From a virus: a DNA stretch of 53,974 nt. This document shows positions 19,912 to 38,023 of the stretch, piece by piece. The notes beneath the pieces are model-generated. The model did no database searches and was not told the origin of the DNA. It saw only the letters and a list, made by a program, of their open reading frames with translations. Positions within the stretch are counted from its first letter, which is position 1. The number at the start of each line of letters is the position of its first letter. Made by a program: the position numbers and the translations under genes. The DNA is taken from positions 1-53,974 of IMG/VR virus record IMGVR_UViG_3300032087_001678; one strand, written 5' to 3'.

Positions 19912-20091
19912 TTATTTATATATGTTAGGTGTATCCCTACGGGAGCCTAACGAGTTGATTACTTTGTCAGCAATCTCGTCTAAAGATACTATAAACTTAA
20001 GAATGTCGCAACGCCCTTGACTAAAGCGGTAGTTGTCCGTTATTTCCAACTGGTCCCGCTCCATTTGGCGTAGGGACTCCATTTCTTCCAT
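19912..20091 (-). CDS. Small gene overlapping the portal 3' end (start uncertain)
   Basis: The open frame runs from 20181, and the likely protein is its C-terminal part 'MEEMESLRQMERDQLEITD', then 'YRFSQGRCDILKFIVSLDEIADKVINSLG'. Possible Met starts lie at 20115, 20091, 20082 and 20064, and none has a clear ribosome site. All overlap the Gly/Pro-rich portal tail. The short helical protein sits between portal and scaffold in the operon. The role is unknown. Confidence 0.5.
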   Translation of the reverse strand: MEEMESLRQMERDQLEITDNYRFSQGRCDILKFIVSLDEIADKVINSLGSRRDTPNIYK

Positions 20092-22024
20092 CAGGACCGA
20101 CCATTCCGTCCCCATTTGGGACTTGATCAACTTGACCGCCTTGCTGGCTGGCAATGATAGCTTGTTGTAATGCTTGCTCATCCATTAACTCCTTTTGTGA
20201 TTTAATTACTTCTTCTGGATCAATATCTAAGGACTTAGCAATATCAGTTAATAGTTTTTCTCTATCAACCATTTGTGCATCCATTGGATTATTGATCAGC
20301 GATAGGAACTGTAGCAATCTTTGTGATTGTACTTCCTTCTGTATCAGGGCTGTGGATCCTTTTGCAACTATACGCATATCTGACTTAACATTTTCATTTT
20401 CATTCCATGTCATGTTCCAGTCATACAGTGAGCGTATCATTGGTTGGGTAAGGTAGTCATCAATGTTTTTGATAACTGATTTTAAGACTATGTTTGCATT
20501 ACTCATCAAAATAGAAATACCTGTAGCAGTTCTATTCAATGAGCTTTGTGTTTGTCCGTGGGTATAGGACGGTAGTGCCGTAGTCTCATCGGCAAATCTT
20601 CTAAATAATTCAATAACAGATACAAGTGCTGGAGAATTTGACTGAGGTTGATAAAAACGAACCATAGGCTGATTACCATCACCGCCCTCTCTCAAGAATA
20701 CTCGCCAAGGGTAAAGCTCTGTTGGATCTTCACCAGATGCCATGATGTCTGTATTAACTTCCACCATAGGACCAGATGATAACGCAACATTATCCAAATA
20801 TATTCTTGTAGCTGCATTCATAGTGGCTTGAGAATCTCTCATCATTCTAGGTACGCCAGTACCCCAGAAAGCGTGAGGATTCTTCTCGTAAGGAAATATG
20901 AAATAAGGTATTATGCCACCAGGTAAAGGATTAAGTTGTGCCTTAATAACCTTACCAGCAACTATCCATACATTTGCATGATACTCTTGTGAGAGATCAT
21001 CTTCCTCGCCAAATTCAACGCCAGCGTCTTGTAAATCGTATCCGTTGAGAGAACCCCAGTATTCCATAACTTCAAACTTACCTGTTTGGGTAGATCTGTC
21101 ATTAACATTAGCAATCTCTCTTCTGTCTTTTTCGTGTTGAGCTTCATCGTGATTTCCGTCTGGATTCATTTCTATGCACTCTTCTATAATCTCAGCATTG
21201 AATCCTGGATAATCTTTTAAATCTCTAAACTCTTGTCTTGAAATAATATGTCTTCTAAATAAATCTCTTAGGTCATCCATGCTAGTAGCATGAGGATCAG
21301 GATATAAATCAAATACTGATACAGCCTCCATTTCGGGGAATGCACTTTCTTCGTATATTAAATTAAAGCCTTCTTCTCCTTTAACCCACTTATGATCTCT
21401 GTCAACTTTAAGAGTTCCAGCTTTCATAGCACCAGTACCAAAGATAACTTGCTCCATAATGGCATCTTTCATTTTGCCTTCTAGGTTGCTTTCTATAGCT
21501 TGGTCAAGAATAGCTTCTTCCATATTCTCAACTCTACGCTTTGTTTCCTCTTGAATCTCTTCTTTTAATTCTTCTAATCTAGCCATGATTAAATCATCAA
21601 CTAAACCAGGGTCCACTACTTCGGCAGCTTGCATAATTTCTAATGCAGCTCTTTCGGTAAGTTCTTGTTCTACTAGGGGTTGTTTAGAAACTGGGGTTGC
21701 TTCGATTGAAAAGAATTTTTGACCTGGTTGAAATAATAAATCCGTTATTCTAGAGAATGCTGCGAGTACCTTGGTTCGGGTTAGACCAACATAGACTTGT
21801 GATCTATCGCCTTTTGATTGAATCTTGGCAAGAACCTCAGGATCGTATTGACCCATGAACGCTCTTAGATCTTCAATCCAGTCATCCTCAATATCATCAC
21901 GGGCATCTTTGTATTCTGTGTACTTGGATTCAAGTATATGTCCGAGTGAATTTAATTCCTGTAGTTCTTCTTCTGTGGCATCTACTGCTGCTGTTATGCC
22001 TTCGGGTCCTAGTTCTTTACTCAT
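20021..22024 (-). CDS. Portal protein (P22-like)
   Basis: 667 residues, slightly shorter than the P22 portal (725). The N-terminus has 'EYKDARDDIEDDWIEDLRAFMG' and 'SQVYVGLTRTKVLAAFSRITDLLFQPGQKFFSIEATP', which I recognise from marine P22-type portals. A central 'NPLPGGIIPYFIFPYEKNPHAFWGTGVPRMMRDSQATMNAATRIYLDN' segment includes the wing/clip pattern. Later, 'TATGISILMSNANIVLKSVIKNIDDYL' is the stem-helix region. The C-terminus is a Gly/Pro/Asn-rich tail. The dodecamer is the DNA gate and packaging platform. It follows terL by six bases. Confidence 0.92.
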   Translation of the reverse strand: MSKELGPEGITAAVDATEEELQELNSLGHILESKYTEYKDARDDIEDDWIEDLRAFMGQYDPEVLAKIQSKGDRSQVYVGLTRTKVLAAFSRITDLLFQPGQKFFSIEATPVSKQPLVEQELTERAALEIMQAAEVVDPGLVDDLIMARLEELKEEIQEETKRRVENMEEAILDQAIESNLEGKMKDAIMEQVIFGTGAMKAGTLKVDRDHKWVKGEEGFNLIYEESAFPEMEAVSVFDLYPDPHATSMDDLRDLFRRHIISRQEFRDLKDYPGFNAEIIEECIEMNPDGNHDEAQHEKDRREIANVNDRSTQTGKFEVMEYWGSLNGYDLQDAGVEFGEEDDLSQEYHANVWIVAGKVIKAQLNPLPGGIIPYFIFPYEKNPHAFWGTGVPRMMRDSQATMNAATRIYLDNVALSSGPMVEVNTDIMASGEDPTELYPWRVFLREGGDGNQPMVRFYQPQSNSPALVSVIELFRRFADETTALPSYTHGQTQSSLNRTATGISILMSNANIVLKSVIKNIDDYLTQPMIRSLYDWNMTWNENENVKSDMRIVAKGSTALIQKEVQSQRLLQFLSLINNPMDAQMVDREKLLTDIAKSLDIDPEEVIKSQKELMDEQALQQAIIASQQGGQVDQVPNGDGMVGPDGRNGVPTPNGAGPVGNNGQLPL

Positions 22025-22030
22025 ATCTTT

Positions 22031-23605
22031 TTAAAAAAATTGTTTCTTTACTCGCCTAAAGTTTTGTCTATGTTTTCTTGGCATACTGTTCAATCCAAAT
22101 AAAGCTATAGCGTATGCCATTATTTTATCATCAAAACACCCATGTTGGGCATTTGTGATTCCTCTAGCGTCTACGACATAAGTTCGCAGCTCATCTATTA
22201 GCTCCATATCTACTATACCACTTTCTCCCTGGCGTAGTAAGTGTACTAAGTTATCAATAATTAAAGGTTTTGTCTTGCTTGTGGTTAAAAAACCTGCACG
22301 GCGGGTTAGGCGGTCTACATACGCATCATCCACACTTTGCTCAACATAGAGATTCGGATAATTTAATTCTTGTATTTTTCTGATGGTTGTCAGTCCGTGA
22401 TTGTTTCTTTCAATCAATGTCCAGGCTTTGTTATAGAAGTGTCCGATCTTGGCAACTATGTAGGCGAGGTCAAACGGGTCCACATGACCAGACCAGGTCG
22501 CAACTTGATTGCCCATATGATCTAGCACCTGGATGCAAGAGTAGTCGCCATGCTCCAAGCCCTCCGAAACATCAACGCCAATACAGTATCTTAGAGAATC
22601 CTTTGGATTCTCGAAAATTTTTAGGAGCCCTTTTTCATGTGGCACGAACTCACTCTCACGCACATCGTATCGGGAAATCGGGGTAAAGCATTCTACAGCT
22701 GCTTGATCTATAAACTTCGGCTCAACAAATAATCTACCTGTTGTTAAAAAAGCTTCCTGCGGGGTAGACGGGTACTCTTGTCTAAATAGATCTTCGCCAC
22801 CAAGCTCCTGGATTTTTAAACGCCTAAACATTATCTGCTCATCATCCAGATTAAACATAGTCTTAATATCTTCTTCTTCACGCTCTAATTCAAAGTAGGG
22901 GTCAACCTTCCTGCGGTAATCGGACATCATATACCAAGGTATAAAACATAGATCCCACTCACCTTCACCACGCAGGGATCGCATACACGCATCATAGAAC
23001 CAACCACCTGCTCCATTCGCCGTAGATTCTAATAATATTTCTGACTCTGCTTCTGGAACGGTCTGAAGTAGCCCTGGAATGATATCGGCATTTGGGTAAA
23101 AGGCTACCTCAGAACCATGTAAATAATTAGTTGTCCATCCTCTCCCGACTTCACCAGTTCTCGCTGTAGCGATTCTCCACCTTGATCCGTGGGTAAAAGC
23201 CATAGAATTGCTAGTAGATTCTTTAAGATCAGGGGTCACTAATGGGTGGGGTAAATTATCATAGAAGTTTCTAACCATTCCAAAGATAGCTTTTGTGGAT
23301 TCATTAAGGTGCGATACTACTACCGCATTCTGGTTTTGTGCAGTTACGGTCTTCCAAAATCCCCGTGCCTGGCAATAAGTAGATATACCTGTCTGCCTGG
23401 ACTTTAATATAAGCATTCTAACCCTACCATGTTTCTGCATTTGGTCGTTAATCTGCTTATCTAGCAATAACTGTGCTTCGTTAAAATTAAAATCTATTAA
23501 TTTACCTTGTTTATCTATGATTTTTAGACAATGTTTAGCGTATTGTCTGAGATCCGTTTTAAAGGTTTTTATAATTTTTTGTATTTTAGATTTTTCAGAT
23601 TGCAT
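22031..23605 (-). CDS. terL: Terminase large subunit
   Basis: 524 residues. The ATPase part has a Walker-A-like 'KSRQTGIST' (68-76), a Walker-B-like 'NYLHGSEVAF' ending in E166, and coupling motif 'LLESTANGAGG' (191-201). The nuclease part has RNase-H-fold acidic residues D345 ('CIGVDVSEG'), E399 ('LIERNNHG') and D492/D493 ('GCFDDKIMAYAIAL'). This is the complete headful- or site-cutting motor protein. It is followed by the portal and separated from terS by an unusual 138-bp gap. Confidence 0.97.
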   Translation of the reverse strand: MQSEKSKIQKIIKTFKTDLRQYAKHCLKIIDKQGKLIDFNFNEAQLLLDKQINDQMQKHGRVRMLILKSRQTGISTYCQARGFWKTVTAQNQNAVVVSHLNESTKAIFGMVRNFYDNLPHPLVTPDLKESTSNSMAFTHGSRWRIATARTGEVGRGWTTNYLHGSEVAFYPNADIIPGLLQTVPEAESEILLESTANGAGGWFYDACMRSLRGEGEWDLCFIPWYMMSDYRRKVDPYFELEREEEDIKTMFNLDDEQIMFRRLKIQELGGEDLFRQEYPSTPQEAFLTTGRLFVEPKFIDQAAVECFTPISRYDVRESEFVPHEKGLLKIFENPKDSLRYCIGVDVSEGLEHGDYSCIQVLDHMGNQVATWSGHVDPFDLAYIVAKIGHFYNKAWTLIERNNHGLTTIRKIQELNYPNLYVEQSVDDAYVDRLTRRAGFLTTSKTKPLIIDNLVHLLRQGESGIVDMELIDELRTYVVDARGITNAQHGCFDDKIMAYAIALFGLNSMPRKHRQNFRRVKKQFF

Positions 23606-25382: not shown

Positions 25383-25412
25383 TTGACACTATATATCGTA
25401 TGGCATTAATAT
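25383..25412 (+). promoter_or_regulatory. Strong sigma70-like promoter of the early plus-strand operon
   Basis: TTGACA (25383-25388) and TAATAT (25407-25412) are 18 bases apart, in the 155-bp divergent gap between leftward and rightward operons. The first gene follows with an AAAGGAGG ribosome site at 25441. Minus-strand TATATT elements in the same gap may start the leftward operon, but they have no clear -35 box. Confidence 0.8.
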
Positions 25413-25452: not shown

Positions 25453-25869
25453 ATGAAACAATTATCAAAGCAAATGACCGTAGAAGAATGGGCTTCTACA
25501 TGGGCTGACAAAGAAACAAGAGACTACATCTTGAAGAATGAGAGAGATGAGGTGAGATACCACAACAATGGTAAATCAAGTTTTAATTCTTTGTCTTATC
25601 CTATCTACGATGGTGACTACTACTTCGCATTTATTGGTGACAGTGTAAGGGTGAATGCTAAGTACAATGCTCAAGCTAACAGAGAGCTTAGAAAACTTGC
25701 TAAGTCTTCTCTAAGCAATGATGATCTATTTGACAGAATGCAAGACTACTTTGAGATGCAGTTCAAGAATGTTGGATCAGGTGACTCAATGACTAGAGAA
25801 GAGCTATGGTTCGCAATTCTAGATATCAGAGATGTAAGCGTATGTGATGTTTGCGGAGGAGGTGCGTAA
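25453..25869 (+). CDS. Unknown early protein
   Basis: 138 residues, charged and aromatic-rich, with 'TVEEWASTWADKETRDYILKNERDEVRYHNNG' and a C-terminal 'VSVCDVCGGGA' CxxC pair. It is the first gene after a strong promoter and a near-ideal ribosome site, so high early expression is likely. That position is often used by phage host-takeover proteins, but no family is recognised. Confidence 0.75.
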   Translation: MKQLSKQMTVEEWASTWADKETRDYILKNERDEVRYHNNGKSSFNSLSYPIYDGDYYFAFIGDSVRVNAKYNAQANRELRKLAKSSLSNDDLFDRMQDYFEMQFKNVGSGDSMTREELWFAILDIRDVSVCDVCGGGA

Positions 25870-26153
25870 TGTTTGAATATATCGTATTTGGAATCGTTGA
25901 TAACGCAGTCATGATCCTTGGGGCTATGACTGGATATGAAGTCGAGAAATTTTTACCTAAGCAATTTCAAAAAGGTTTAGGGGTAGTCTTTGGAGCTGGC
26001 ATAGGAAACGCTGTGTCAGACTTCATGGGTGGTGCTGGTACTGGGTCTTGGGACCTAGCCTTTGGCACCGCTCTTGGCTGCATCATAGGGCTGATATTTA
26101 TTCCGCTGTTTGTCATGATTGGCAAGCTCAGAGACAAAAGGAGGGTTAAATAA
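25869..26153 (+). CDS. Small Gly-rich membrane protein
   Basis: 94 residues from the ATG at 25869, chosen over an upstream in-frame start because TAATG couples it to the previous stop and GGAGGAGG lies just before. Hydrophobic segments at about 4-22, 38-57 and 64-85 with Gly-rich turns ('VVFGAGIGNAVSDFMGGAGTG') and a basic C-terminus suggest a 2-3 span inner-membrane protein. The role is unknown. Superinfection exclusion would be one guess. Confidence 0.75.
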   Translation: MFEYIVFGIVDNAVMILGAMTGYEVEKFLPKQFQKGLGVVFGAGIGNAVSDFMGGAGTGSWDLAFGTALGCIIGLIFIPLFVMIGKLRDKRRVK

Positions 26154-26377
26154 TGTACGGCAGAAATGATATTGAAACTATGGAAAAAAAGTTAGTTGAT
26201 CAAGGCGTGACTGACTGGGATTATTTGGAGCATCTCTGGGCTATTGTCCAGAGAGCTTGGAACCCTGAAAGGGATTACAGTGCAATGCTTAAAAATATGT
26301 ACTACAAGAACTTACACGAAGGGGCTAAATTTCCGTTTTCATCTGTAATTAATAACACTACTGAAGAGCAACACTGA
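26153..26377 (+). CDS. Unknown small early protein
   Basis: 74 residues, starting in TAATG overlap with the membrane gene. It has helical sequence 'DIETMEKKLVDQGVTDWDYLEHLWAIVQRAWNPERDYSAM' and no membrane segment. Its TGA stop forms part of the hammerhead-like element that follows. No family is recognised. Confidence 0.7.
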   Translation: MYGRNDIETMEKKLVDQGVTDWDYLEHLWAIVQRAWNPERDYSAMLKNMYYKNLHEGAKFPFSSVINNTTEEQH

Positions 26378-26411
26378 GAGGTGGCGAAACTCCCTTCGGG
26401 GAGTCTAGTGC
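26368..26411 (+). ncRNA. Hammerhead-ribozyme-like element (U7-deleted core)
   Basis: The plus strand reads CTGA-GAG...CGAAAC (26374-26390), then a perfect stem CTCCC/GGGAG (26390-26403) with a TTCG tetraloop, then GTC (26403-26405). This is the hammerhead order CUGAUGAG...CGAAAC-stem III-GUC with U7 missing and stem II reduced to one G-C pair around GTGG. Stem I is weak: GCAACA against TAGTGC gives one pair, a 2x2 loop and three pairs. It lies in the gap between two early genes. It could be a degraded ribozyme or just a stable intercistronic hairpin. Confidence 0.35.
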
Positions 26412-26448
26412 GGGCAATTAAGCCTAAACAAAATTCCTAGGAGGGAAT

Positions 26449-26577
26449 ATGAATTATAAAAAAGAAATAGCAAAAAGAGATAGGGCTACCTATATCACTT
26501 TTGCTTTAATTATGGCAACACCAGTTGTCTTATCAATTTGGTTAGCAATAGCCTTAACTAACGGAGGGCAATCATGA
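26449..26577 (+). CDS. 42-residue single-span membrane peptide
   Basis: MNYKKEIAKRDRATY is followed by a hydrophobic helix of about 22 residues (ITFALIMATPVVLSIWLAIA) and LTNGGQS. AGGAGGG at 26439 is a strong ribosome site, and an ATTCC/GGAAT hairpin (26433-26448) could mask it. The stop overlaps the next start (ATGA). The basic N-terminus predicts inside-N topology. The function is unknown. Confidence 0.75.
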   Translation: MNYKKEIAKRDRATYITFALIMATPVVLSIWLAIALTNGGQS

Positions 26578-27101
26578 AAAAGAATGATTTTAATCTAGAT
26601 GCAATGCACCGTGATACATACGGTGAAGGCAACAGAGCCTATCAATTAAGAAAGGGTCATTGTGATCTATACAGTAAAGACGGCGTAGAGCTGTACTTTT
26701 CTTACGAAACTTTAGTAGCCTTCAAGGTTCCTAACTATCAGTTAGTATCCATTGAAAATTGCTGGGGTACTACAACAGGCAAACACCTTAACTGGATTGG
26801 TGAGCCTAAGGATGCAAGGTTGTCTTCTGGTGACTTTGAGAAAGTAGCTAAAGAATGTCTAGAGCCTTACGGGGTTCTAGATACTTCTGATCCTTCTGAT
26901 CCTATGAAAACTGTAGGCATGGTATCTGCTATGTTTGATCTACTATGTCAAGATGATAAGGAAGCCTCCCTTAAGTATAGAAAGCGTTTCTATGCTGCTG
27001 GTGGTCTTTCTTTTCCCCCCGATTGGGACGAGCTGCCAGCTGCTGAGAGAGCTGAGAGATTAGCCAAGGTTGATAATGTAGCACTCAAGGGGGTGGAATA
27101 A
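26574..27101 (+). CDS. Unknown early protein with phage 'TTTGKHLNWI' domain
   Basis: 175 residues. The N-terminal ~90 residues include 'VELYFSYETLVAFKVPNYQLVSIENCWGTTTGKHLNWIG', a pattern I have met in many phage early proteins (DUF8033-like, from memory). The C-terminal part is helical ('SAMFDLLCQDDKEASLKYRKRFY', 'AAERAERLAKVD'). It is coupled to genes on both sides (ATGA and TAATG). No catalytic motif is seen. Confidence 0.75.
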   Translation: MKKNDFNLDAMHRDTYGEGNRAYQLRKGHCDLYSKDGVELYFSYETLVAFKVPNYQLVSIENCWGTTTGKHLNWIGEPKDARLSSGDFEKVAKECLEPYGVLDTSDPSDPMKTVGMVSAMFDLLCQDDKEASLKYRKRFYAAGGLSFPPDWDELPAAERAERLAKVDNVALKGVE

Positions 27102-27981: not shown

Positions 27982-27999
27982 TACAAATAAAACAATTAA

Positions 28000-28028
28000 G
28001 AGCGGGGTTTTTACTCCGCTTTTTTTTA
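28000..28028 (+). terminator. Rho-independent terminator of the early operon
   Basis: AGCGGGG (28001-28007) pairs with CTCCGCT (28014-28020), including one G-T pair, around a TTTTTA loop. A run of eight or more T follows. It lies 20 bases after the NrdR-like stop. Confidence 0.92.
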
Positions 28029-31095: not shown

Positions 31096-31420
31096 ATCTA
31101 CTCCTCTCTAATCTATAGTTGGCTTGTTTAGTTCTCCATTCCTCGAACTGCATATCTACAGCAGCTTTCTCTGTCTGTAATGCGTCAAGTCTGGCTTTTG
31201 CCTTAGCTACTAACAATGATGCTTCGTAGTAAGGGTCTGATGCTTCAGCCTTGGATTTCTGGGCATTGTAGCTACGCTCCCCATCTTCCTTAGCTTTACA
31301 TAGCTCGATCCAGAATACTCTTTTGAGATTTACTTCTGACTTAAGTACATCAACCCTAGCCTCTGATATGTTAGGTATGATGTCTCTTAACTGTTGATGA
31401 AAGTTTTCAGATTGGTCCAT
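31085..31420 (-). CDS. Unknown coiled-coil protein
   Basis: 111 residues, nearly all helix: 'VDVLKSEVNLKRVFWIELCKAKEDGERSYNAQKSKAE' and 'ASLLVAKAKARLDALQTEKAAVDMQFEEWRTKQ'. It overlaps dnaB by 14 bp. It resembles small helical phage proteins near replication genes. No motif for activity is present. Confidence 0.65.
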   Translation of the reverse strand: MDQSENFHQQLRDIIPNISEARVDVLKSEVNLKRVFWIELCKAKEDGERSYNAQKSKAEASDPYYEASLLVAKAKARLDALQTEKAAVDMQFEEWRTKQANYRLERSRYGA

Positions 31421-32726
31421 ATTCTGTCCTCTGTTTTTTTCTTTCCCCGAAAGCCACCTCCTCAGGATCTAAAAACTTTGATCTAGCTCCGTCAAAAGCC
31501 AGTTCAAATTCTCCAGTTTCACCTAGACGGTTCTTTCTGATTATTACTTCGGCAAGGCTAGTATCTAATGAATCATAATATTCTTGCCTATATAACATTA
31601 TAACCATATCAGCATCCTGTTCTATAGATCCTGAATCCCTAAGATCTGAAAGGACTGGTCGCTTATCCGTTCTCGCCTCCACACCCCGATTTAATTGAGA
31701 CAACGAGATTAACGGACAGCCTACATCTTTAGCCAGCCCCTTCAGAAGATTGGAAATATAGGTCATAGATGCCGCCCTACTGTCTGAATTGCTTGGTGCT
31801 TTATTTGAAGTCATAAGCAACTGTAAGTAGTCGACAACAATTAGATCTATATTTTTAATTGCTTGTATCGCTTTGGTTTTATTTATTAAAGTTTCTATTG
31901 TTATAGGTGACTTATCGTAAACATATAAATTAGTCTCTGAAAGTCTTTGTTCTATAGTATTAAACTTATCCCATTGATCTGCGGTTAGATTTCCTGTTAA
32001 TAGCTTATCCATACCTAAATCAGACTCAGAGCTAATGATCTTTTTAATCAATTGTTCGTTAGTCATTTCTAGAGAAAAAACTAAAACAGTCTTACCAGCA
32101 AGAATATTATTCGTGGCTATGTTTAATGCCCATGTGGTTTTACCCATCCCTGGTCTTCCAGCAACAATAATTAGATCACCATCTTTGAAACCTTTTATTC
32201 TTTGATCTATATTTTGGAATCCTGTTTTAATTAGACTCTGTGATAAAAGATCTGTATTCTTAAGTTCATCTTTTACTTTTTGTAAAACATCCTTAACCTC
32301 TACTGGTGATCCTGTATTTTTTGTGACTTTATTGTTGATAATTAATTGATTGACTTGATCAACCTTTTTATCAATAGGATCATCTGTCTTAACAATGTCT
32401 GGTATTTCTGCTGCAAGTCTTAAGAGTTTATTGTTTGCAGTCTTTTCATGCATGGCTTTAATCCAATGAGCAAATCCTGCTGGACTAATACAATAACCTG
32501 CTGCTTCTCTTATTTCATTGAAAGTAAAATCATCTTCTATTTTGTTTCTTATGGTGACTATGTCAGAGGCTTGTGTATCTAACATAACCTCATAAGCTTT
32601 TCTGTAAGAATAAGTTTCAAAGTCTTCTGGGAGCAAGCCTTCATCTTGAGCTTTCTTAAATCTTTTATGATCAAGTATCATGGCTCCTAAAAGATTAGCT
32701 TCTAATTCATATATTTCTTTATCCAT
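31407..32726 (-). CDS. dnaB: Replicative DNA helicase, DnaB family
   Basis: 439 residues from the ATG at 32726, chosen because AGGAGAC lies immediately upstream. A Met eight codons earlier (32750) lacks such a site. The N-terminal helical domain carries 'EANLLGAMILDHKRFKKA'. The RecA-like domain has Walker A 'GRPGMGKTT', 'VLVFSLEMTNEQL', Walker B 'IDLIVVDYLQLL' and the late 'LSDLRDSGSIEQDADMVIMLYR' block. It unwinds the fork as a hexameric ring. No DnaC-type loader is visible, and the adjacent initiator may load it. Confidence 0.96.
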   Translation of the reverse strand: MDKEIYELEANLLGAMILDHKRFKKAQDEGLLPEDFETYSYRKAYEVMLDTQASDIVTIRNKIEDDFTFNEIREAAGYCISPAGFAHWIKAMHEKTANNKLLRLAAEIPDIVKTDDPIDKKVDQVNQLIINNKVTKNTGSPVEVKDVLQKVKDELKNTDLLSQSLIKTGFQNIDQRIKGFKDGDLIIVAGRPGMGKTTWALNIATNNILAGKTVLVFSLEMTNEQLIKKIISSESDLGMDKLLTGNLTADQWDKFNTIEQRLSETNLYVYDKSPITIETLINKTKAIQAIKNIDLIVVDYLQLLMTSNKAPSNSDSRAASMTYISNLLKGLAKDVGCPLISLSQLNRGVEARTDKRPVLSDLRDSGSIEQDADMVIMLYRQEYYDSLDTSLAEVIIRKNRLGETGEFELAFDGARSKFLDPEEVAFGERKKQRTEYGPI

Positions 32727-33357
32727 GTCTCCTCTCAATGATTGCGTCAAATTGATTAATACCTAACATTGTTCCAAGTGTAGGTCTGCCATCCCAAAAA
32801 GACCTTATCCATTTCTTATGACCTTCAGAGTTTGCTATATCAAAATAGGCTTCCCAAAACTCTTTTGATGTGAAATCTATTTTTTTCCCCGTTTTCGGCG
32901 AGATATAACCTTTTTTAGATTTAGCTATTTCTTTTAATTTTTTATATGGCGTAGTGTATTTGTGTGCATTGCTGGTATGAGCATAAAATGATTGATCGCA
33001 TTTCTTTTTATAAATCTCATTAATCAAATCTATATCTAATATAAATTCATCTTTAGTATAAGCTTTAGTATTGTAGCCACCTGCCGACCCCCCATAGCCG
33101 TCTGCCGACCCCCCTAATATTTTGTAATAATTGCTTGTGTTTTTTCTTTGCTCCCACTCTATATAACCCATGTCTCTTAACTTTTTAAGATTATCTTTAA
33201 TAGCTGTGAGGGAAAGACCAGTAAGCTCAGTTAACTTTTTATGGGAGGGATAAGAACAACCAAACTCATCTGAATAGTTAGCAAGAACAATAAGCAATAA
33301 TTTTTGTGTTGAATTTACTTCAACCCGCAGAACTTTTGTTATGTATTCAAGTGACAT
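32719..33357 (-). CDS. Winged-helix replication initiator (lambda O-like)
   Basis: 212 residues. The N-terminal winged helix 'NSTQKLLLIVLANYSDEFGCSYPSHKKLTELTGLSLTAIKDNLKKLRDMGYIEW' is of the HTH_36/replication-protein type. A Gly/Ser/Tyr linker ('GGSADGYGGSAGGYN') follows, then a C-terminal domain with 'WIRSFWDGRPTLGTMLGINQFD'. In lambda-like phages such a protein binds the origin and recruits DnaB, the next gene. The Gly-rich linker DNA (near 33085-33120) contains short direct repeats, where an origin could lie as in lambda O. Confidence 0.78.
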   Translation of the reverse strand: MSLEYITKVLRVEVNSTQKLLLIVLANYSDEFGCSYPSHKKLTELTGLSLTAIKDNLKKLRDMGYIEWEQRKNTSNYYKILGGSADGYGGSAGGYNTKAYTKDEFILDIDLINEIYKKKCDQSFYAHTSNAHKYTTPYKKLKEIAKSKKGYISPKTGKKIDFTSKEFWEAYFDIANSEGHKKWIRSFWDGRPTLGTMLGINQFDAIIERRHG

Positions 33358-37029: not shown

Positions 37030-37226
37030 TGTTGGATTTTATTTTAGGCATTCTGTTTTTTATTTTTGTTATGGCTGTGGTCTTCGGGCTCATAGTTTAT
37101 TTGTTTGCTTATTGGGCTACTAGCTCTACATTTGTAGGCTGCCAAGAAACTAGAGATGATCTAAATAATTTATTAAAGATGTTAGATAACTTAAGCCAAG
37201 ATATTAAAAAACTATTTAGAAGATGA
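37029..37226 (+). CDS. Small membrane protein with coiled-coil tail
   Basis: 65 residues. A long hydrophobic segment (about 3-30, 'ILGILFFIFVMAVVFGLIVYL') is followed by 'RDDLNNLLKMLDNLSQDIKKLFRR'. It overlaps the integrase start by four bases, so it is coupled to int. It may be an exclusion or holin-like peptide. Confidence 0.6.
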   Translation: MLDFILGILFFIFVMAVVFGLIVYLFAYWATSSTFVGCQETRDDLNNLLKMLDNLSQDIKKLFRR

Positions 37227-38023
37227 ACACATTTACTGACGCAATAAAAGAATATTATAGGTTTAATAAAATGGGTAAGAATGACTTTACCTATAGAAAA
37301 TACTTTGAACCTTTGTTTGCTGATGTAGATGTTAAAACTATTACTAAAGAACAAATAGCTGCTGCTAGATCTGGTATTCAGGGAGCACCAGGAACAGTTA
37401 ACAGATATTTAAACTACTTCCGTGCCATACTTATGTATGCATATGAAGAGTTAGGGTGGTTGGACTCCAAACCCATCATTAAAAGAGTAAAAGATTCCCC
37501 TAAAAGATTAAAATATTTTACTCTTGAAGACATAAAGAAGCTTCATAGTGCACTTCCCCCGCACTTGAAGAAACCTTTTGTCTTTTCTCTCCTTACAGGC
37601 GTGAGGATGTCCAACTGCTTTAATTTAAAATGGGATGATATAAAAGAAGATCAAATTGCAATTGATGGAACAGAAACTAAAAACGGTAAGAGTTTATGTG
37701 TGCCATTAAATAAGAAGTGCAGAGAGCTTCTAGAATCAATTAAAAAAGAAAGCCCTTATGTTTTCACCTATGCTGGCAGAAAACTCAGCAGAGCGTCAAA
37801 TACGGGCTGGTATAACGCATTAAACAAAGCTGGTCTAAAAGGATTTAGATGGCACGATATTAGACACACCTGGGCTACCCATCATGTAGAGAATGGAACC
37901 CCCTTACATACACTACAACATCTTGGTGGGTGGTCCGATTTCAATATAGTTAATAGGTATGCACACCTATCAAAAGATTATTTAAACGATGCTTGTGAGA
38001 CAAGTAATACTTTGATATCTTAG
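37223..38023 (+). CDS. int: Tyrosine integrase
   Basis: 266 residues, short for a phage integrase. The SAM-like core-binding domain (about 1-85) is present, with no separate arm-binding domain. The catalytic set is complete: R128 ('TGVRMSN'), Lys in 'TKNGKS' (about 153-156), H211 and R214 ('HDIRH'), H233 ('LQHLGGWSD') and nucleophile Y246 ('VNRYAHLS'). It catalyses site-specific recombination between attP and attB. It is the last gene of the recombination operon and is followed by the hairpin at 38040. No excisionase was recognised. Confidence 0.96.
   Translation: MNTFTDAIKEYYRFNKMGKNDFTYRKYFEPLFADVDVKTITKEQIAAARSGIQGAPGTVNRYLNYFRAILMYAYEELGWLDSKPIIKRVKDSPKRLKYFTLEDIKKLHSALPPHLKKPFVFSLLTGVRMSNCFNLKWDDIKEDQIAIDGTETKNGKSLCVPLNKKCRELLESIKKESPYVFTYAGRKLSRASNTGWYNALNKAGLKGFRWHDIRHTWATHHVENGTPLHTLQHLGGWSDFNIVNRYAHLSKDYLNDACETSNTLIS

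Follow-up and report, generated by a model that had tools for sequence, protein, structure and literature searches.

Type I hammerhead ribozymes between early genes of a marine virus and its relatives, including cultured SAR11 phages, probably divide a long message into separate ones

Hammerhead ribozymes already described in phages

The kind of ribozyme considered here, and its gene-punctuating layout, are already known, since Perreault et al. (2011) described that layout in prophages: in phage DNA, hammerheads lie on either side of one gene or of a short block of variable genes, and the tandem copies were proposed to punctuate mRNA by cutting long transcripts (PMC3088659). According to the part of that survey used here, three tandem prophage sets (from A. 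tumefaciens, A. caulinodans and C. scindens) cleave in vitro, one of them also in E. coli; four of 18 hammerheads conforming to the consensus were inactive, and the purpose of phage hammerheads was left open. The same source describes HHphage of haloviruses HF1 and HF2, a hammerhead that precedes the start codon of an early gene by 13 nt, with a transcript 5′ end within 3 nt of the cut (PMC3088659).

The elements reported here likewise lie between same-strand phage genes of varying identity. They differ from the prophage elements, as these appear in that part of the survey, in several respects. Perreault's hammerheads are prophage-borne, belong to types I–III and in about 40% of cases likely use a pseudoknot, whereas ours are found on marine virus contigs and in SAR11 phages, are of type I with a short stem II, have a quantified placement relative to stop and start codons, and in some cases encode protein tails. 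HHphage carries a two-base core insertion, whereas the marine core is standard. In the literature searched, outside which most subscription papers and preprints lie, we recognised no report of pelagiphage hammerheads, of a marine or SAR11 family, of ribozyme-encoded tails or of ribozyme-leader modules between unrelated genes.

The element of the window

The window, i.e. the whole stretch of DNA analysed, consists of positions 1–53,974 of IMG/VR virus record IMGVR_UViG_3300032087_001678 (53,974 nucleotides). It looks like a temperate tailed phage; matches to PHROGs include an integrase (37223–38023, +), a DnaB-like helicase (31407–32750, −) and a terminase large subunit (22031–23605, −), and there is a portal/head-tail adaptor region at 20021–22024. 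On the plus strand, positions 26356–26410 read CACUA CUGAAGAG CAACACUGAGAGGUGG CGAAAC UCCC UUCG GGGA GUC UAGUG, a sequence that supports assignment to the type I hammerhead class. We number its positions (C3 to U16.1) by the hammerhead convention. All core nucleotides are present: the CUGA core segment CUGAAGAG (26361–26368) supplies CUGAAGA (C3 U4 G5 A6 N7 G8 A9, 26361–26367), a CUGANGA motif that is kept in relatives, where the search pattern required it, and GAA (G12 A13 A14) follows at 26386–26388, with A15.1 at 26389. The further class features, GAA(A) and the A15.1–U16.1 and G10.1–C11.1 pairs, are also found. Stem I, which covaries in relatives, is a perfect 5-bp helix of CACUA (26356–26360) with UAGUG (26406–26410). 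Stem II (26368–26385) has five pairs (G–C, C–G and CAC/GUG) with a two-base AA bulge and a UGAGAG loop, and stem III (26389–26404) has 6 bp (AC-UCCC/GGGA-GU, with A15.1–U16.1 counted in) and a UUCG loop. Loops close stems II and III and stem I opens to the flanks, which is the type I topology. The NUH cleavage triplet is GUC at 26403–26405, so that, by the site used in the hammerhead class, cleavage is predicted between C17 (26405, 2′,3′-cyclic phosphate) and U1.1 (26406, 5′-OH), and the 3′ strand of stem I would form the 5′ end of the downstream product.

The first-pass annotation had already proposed a type I hammerhead between early genes, which the full core, three stems and covariation bear out. 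It located CGAAAC, the UUCG-capped hairpin and GUC correctly, and its predicted 5′-OH end at 26406 is the same point under our assignment. Its limits, 26368–26411, are shifted because it took as core the CUGA-GAG at 26374–26380, whose CUGA contains the upstream stop codon. That segment is without position 7 and corresponds to the last part of the 5′ strand of stem II together with the stem II loop, so we reject it; the choice is what led to the belief that U7 was missing and stem I weak. The true core lies 13 nt upstream and has every base, and once CUGA and the first two stems are placed correctly the case for a hammerhead becomes stronger.

Rfam models, at their own cut-offs, gave no match in the window. 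The best match is RF03152 (RAGATH-1-hammerhead), below threshold: all 77 model positions align to 26336–26410 at 29.6 bits (E 0.0045 in the local stretch; cut-off 56.3), with non-standard pairs in the family's 5′ hairpin, and this is the family's one match in the whole record. Neither the window nor the other loci scanned (17 from relatives, 20 from pelagiphages) contain a match to any hammerhead family above its Rfam cut-off, so that the family escapes standard annotation. With a relaxed threshold, five loci yielded five hammerhead matches of 27.8–34.3 bits (four RAGATH-1 and one Hammerhead_3), in three of the five. Hammerhead_3 (RF00008) matches one relative in L033 at 29.6 bits without reaching its cut-off of 48.5, and the topology of the window family is type I, not III.

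Two covariance models were built from the family itself. Model R1 was trained with the window included, so its window score of 49.5 bits is not independent. Model R2 was built without the window and its relatives L002, L004 and L131, with L007 kept in; on the window, the element is its sole hit at E up to 10, with 40.9 bits and an E-value of 8.8e-10. A detector requiring all three stems finds one element in the window, and two of 100 Markov-resampled windows give one.

Folding of the window RNA is less favourable. In the minimal 59-nt stretch the three stems form near the minimum free energy, while with the flanks other structures are preferred: over 26336–26412 the stem I pairs have a mean probability of 0.04, and the fold z-score is only −0.99. 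To form stem I the RNA would need tertiary contacts, or folding during transcription, to offset this unfavourable free energy. We identified no pseudoknot or loop–loop contact: between the stem I region and the stem II loop, where natural fast hammerheads have a tertiary contact, no conserved complementary pair is seen by eye in relatives, in which stem I is often followed by an A/A mismatch, and a pseudoknot between UUAAU upstream of stem I and the leader hairpin loop was dropped because, by eye, it fits the window, L004 and L005 but not L002. An alternative stem, UUUUCA/UGAAGA, is by eye absent from relatives.

Relatives, covariation and gene placement

A search with the 175-aa gene downstream of the element (26574–27101, +) recovered six related loci. 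The same ribozyme lies near that gene in five of them (L002, L004, L005, L006 and L007), and none was found within the stretch examined of L003. The 74-aa protein encoded upstream returned no related loci, and blastn with the element, or with the ribozyme clusters of L033, L026 and L010, returned no match among deposited phages. Across the window and the five positive loci, stem II reads CAC/GUG, CAU/AUG or UCU/AGA and position 7 is A, G or C, and the stem III hairpins of the five differ widely; L002 and L039 show the compensatory change CAC/GUG to CAU/AUG in stem II. The first-pass annotation had named homologues that keep the hairpin and lose the core as evidence against its reading, and the opposite is seen: the core is kept, and hairpin and stems alter by compensatory changes. 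In L026, sub-threshold matches to several microRNA hairpin models, in both orientations, mark a probable long inverted repeat at 2560–2674.

A strict ribozyme pattern was found in 37 stretches of virus contigs and in no genome contig, and a looser one in at least 119 virus-contig stretches; among genome contigs, a looser pattern gave one, L153, labelled a Verrucomicrobia MAG. Among the matches listed, the structural detector reported 223 elements; after 34 duplicates were dropped and the window counted once (as L001 or as the window), 189 distinct elements remain, on 128 IMG/VR loci. Five Markov nulls gave 0, 0, 0, 1 and 0 detections against these 223, a comparison that is partly circular because most loci (L008–L152) were fetched by the ribozyme patterns, and for these loci the copy numbers are no estimate of prevalence. 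The cleavage triplet is GUC in 183 of the 189 elements, the others having UUC, GUA or UUA.

Covariation was assessed on 148 distinct looser-pattern matches among those listed, taken without a pairing filter; the pattern itself dictates only the first two pairs of stems I and III and the first pair of stem II. Beyond these, stem I pairs 3–6 form in 145, 142, 142 and 114 of the 148 (shuffled means 66, 64, 71 and 76), stem II pairs 2–4 in 145, 135 and 144 (62, 83 and 75), and stem III pairs 3–5 in 144/148, 140/148 and 132/147 (60, 65 and 74). Most of the tested positions show all four Watson–Crick types, and pairing past stem I pair 6 and stem II pair 4 is at about chance or below. Pair counts in two alignments, A1 and A2, whose rows were picked for pairing and are hence biased toward structure, agree with this unfiltered test. 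The three helices round the core are thus backed by covariation.

Cultured Pelagibacter (SAR11) phages were reached by gene and protein homology (the TMEM65-like gene, the 175-aa gene and phage RNA polymerase) and not by the ribozyme. The 94-aa gene of the window (25869–26153, +) encodes a protein whose TMEM65 match is just below threshold (24.2 against 25 bits), and its DNA is 69.7% identical to gp04 of Pelagibacter phage HTVC109P; a hammerhead lies directly 3′ of the TMEM65-like gene in both HTVC109P and L007. Model R1 matched 13 of 25 whole records, namely 12 of 20 of pelagivirus type (HTVC109P, 168P, Eistla, 031P, 142P, 304P, 022P, 019P, 131P, 201P, Ran and the uncultured S35-C6) and one of five controls. 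That control match, in Roseobacter phage CRP-125, has 19.3 bits and a poor stem III and was not accepted, nor was one at 307–360 of HTVC031P (24.9 bits, no GUC), a phage that has another good element. R1 found no element in the pelagiphages HTVC021P, 121P, 105P, 134P, 120P, Bylgja, 200P and 119P or in the controls T7, LUZ100, BB8 and CRP-227. Model R2 recovers the same pelagiphage elements. Their stem I strands (GCAACA/UGUUGC, GUAACA/UGUUAC, GCAAAA/UUUUGC and GUUGUA/UACAAC) provide further compensatory sets, and some have a GUA cleavage triplet. In HTVC031P (L157) the hammerhead at 2069–2155 has a greatly lengthened stem II hairpin. In HTVC109P (L154, MH598805.1), the ribozyme at 1104–1165 is overlapped by the annotated CDS gp05 (1121–1387), whose start is probably misannotated, a better one lying downstream at 1256. 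In phage Ran (L164, 3373–4240), ardA-like anti-restriction genes share the early region with a hammerhead, and ardA adjoins hammerheads elsewhere too, according to the part of the 2011 survey used here (PMC3088659).

In the window, the ribozyme is surrounded by small genes of its own strand, in a run extending from a promoter-like site (25383–25412, +) to a terminator-like hairpin with a T tail (27998–28023, +), the possible end of the early operon. Both are consensus matches; evidence for the former is weak, as four such sites were found against a mean of 10.0 in shuffles, and four terminator-like sites were found against 2.3. The upstream 74-aa gene (26153–26377, +) takes its last codons (NTTEEQH and the stop) from the ribozyme and ends before the cut. 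Downstream, the ATG of a 42-aa gene (26449–26577, +) follows 43 nt past the cut, with a Shine-Dalgarno AGGAGG at 26439–26444 (+). Near the predicted new 5′ end, a leader hairpin GGGC-AAUUAA-GCCU (26412–26425, +) has pairs that read GAGC/GCUC in L004–L007; such a hairpin is near the cut in 36 of the 189 leaders, against a shuffled mean of 8.6.

The same placement recurs throughout the family. Of the 189 elements, 182 have within reach an upstream ORF with 30 codons or more, and its stop falls at or before +17 of CUGA, i.e. before the cut, in all but one (a 31-codon ORF in L084). Among the 181 stops, 122 fall no later than −7 of CUGA, the bulk of them between −13 and −7, nine are at −6 to 0, 15 coincide with the UGA of CUGA and 35 are in stem II, with none past +17 (examined to +24). 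An ATG-ORF begins at most 150 nt past the cut in 176 of 189 (median 29 nt); the other 13 have none within that distance, several being at contig ends. Stop and start are both present for 149 of the 189 ribozymes compared with 101 of 945 random same-strand points, and the cut point is inside a same-strand ORF of at least 60 aa in 20 of 189. Multiple copies occur on 37 of the 128 loci, always on one strand, and exactly one ORF fills 37 of the 59 intervals between copies.

Upstream ORFs whose last codons come from the ribozyme number 35 of 181 and belong to 20 families, so that unrelated proteins, the window 74-aa protein among them, share endings such as NTTEEQH, STTDET and STSDES. The tail is probably incidental, since the TMEM65-like protein has it in L007 and lacks it in HTVC109P. 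The ribozyme and its leader form a module that can be conserved between dissimilar flanks: identity upstream, in the module and downstream is 0.52, 1.00 and 0.54 for L005/L006, 0.55, 0.95 and 0.54 for L002/L005, and 0.56, 0.97 and 0.56 for two copies in L014. Other module pairs have one flank in common, and the window module is 0.70–0.82 identical to those of relatives. Together with the 131 upstream and 132 downstream gene families that flank the ribozymes, these islands of identity suggest that genes are exchanged at the modules.

Proposed function and alternatives

The core is complete, the stems covary, the stop–ribozyme–start order is strict and copies cluster on one strand. We consider it likely, with a probability of about 0.8, that the element is a type I hammerhead, located in a leader between genes of an early phage operon, whose self-cleavage splits a polycistronic mRNA and breaks no gene; catalysis, its co-transcriptional timing and an effect on decay are what we infer. 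The RNA would fold as RNA polymerase passes and cut itself after the GUC ending at 26405. Of the two products, the upstream one, with the 138-, 94- and 74-aa genes, would retain its stop codon and end in the ribozyme, with stem II and the GC-rich stem III giving it a structured 3′ end bearing a cyclic phosphate, and the downstream message, from the 42-aa gene onward, would start with a 5′-OH, a short hairpin and the Shine-Dalgarno site. Translation and decay of neighbouring genes could thereby be uncoupled, a punctuation needing no promoter, terminator or host RNase.

The close approach of stops to the ribozyme, including the 35 stops in stem II, of which the window's is one, could alternatively be a regulatory feature: a ribosome ending the upstream gene would cover stem I and the core of an active ribozyme, so that cleavage would be restricted to times of scarce or completed upstream translation. 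Such gating is unlikely in our view, as close stops are to be expected anyway in compact phage genomes and the ribozyme-coded tail of the TMEM65-like protein is not constant. The identity islands between unrelated flanks and the many flanking families would also fit ribozyme-plus-leader DNA kept mainly as a recombination joint for single-gene cassettes, with cleavage secondary; the compensatory divergence of the stems fits RNA function rather than a DNA joint, and this alternative is rather improbable. The window copy might also have lost its activity while the family stays active. This would agree with how poorly the folding ensemble supports stem I once the native flanks are included and with R2 scores of the window and its clade (22.6–40.9 bits) below those of most pelagiphage elements, but with every core position intact and a compensatory stem II change within the clade we find it very improbable.

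Elsewhere, in retrozymes or satellites for instance, hammerheads do serve to excise RNA or make it circular (PMC4918200, PMC7761336), and tandem copies occur here too. Between our copies, though, lie different protein genes rather than repeats, no reverse transcriptase was found among the window proteins scanned (part of the total), and the part of the 2011 survey used here records no circular products (PMC3088659), making this role extremely improbable. The first-pass annotation allowed chance some part, and indeed the bare pattern CTGANGA..GAAAC..GTC arises in 21 of 100 shuffles. A chance likeness around an ordinary hairpin or terminator is nonetheless negligible: once stems are required or the clade is held out, little room is left (2/100; E 8.8e-10), and covariation excludes it. 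We likewise rejected a promoter or terminator role for the UUCG hairpin, for it has no T tail and homologues keep the core rather than the hairpin.

Beyond self-cleavage as punctuation, a bolder reading, which we rate as less likely than not, is that abundant marine phages exchange single genes as cassettes joined by hammerhead-leader modules (70–115 bp), the module DNA serving recombination and its RNA freeing each new gene as its own mRNA. Each accessory gene would then travel with, or insert between, module copies, and would be expressed without a promoter because the module RNA frees it; unrelated proteins would gain a shared tail (NTTEEQH, STTDET and similar) where the 5′ ribozyme strand is read as codons. 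The marine virus and its relatives probably carry the same element to cut a long message into separate ones. With the family present on many marine virus contigs and in SAR11 phages already in culture, HTVC019P, HTVC109P and Eistla among them, the idea of mRNA punctuation becomes directly testable in culture.
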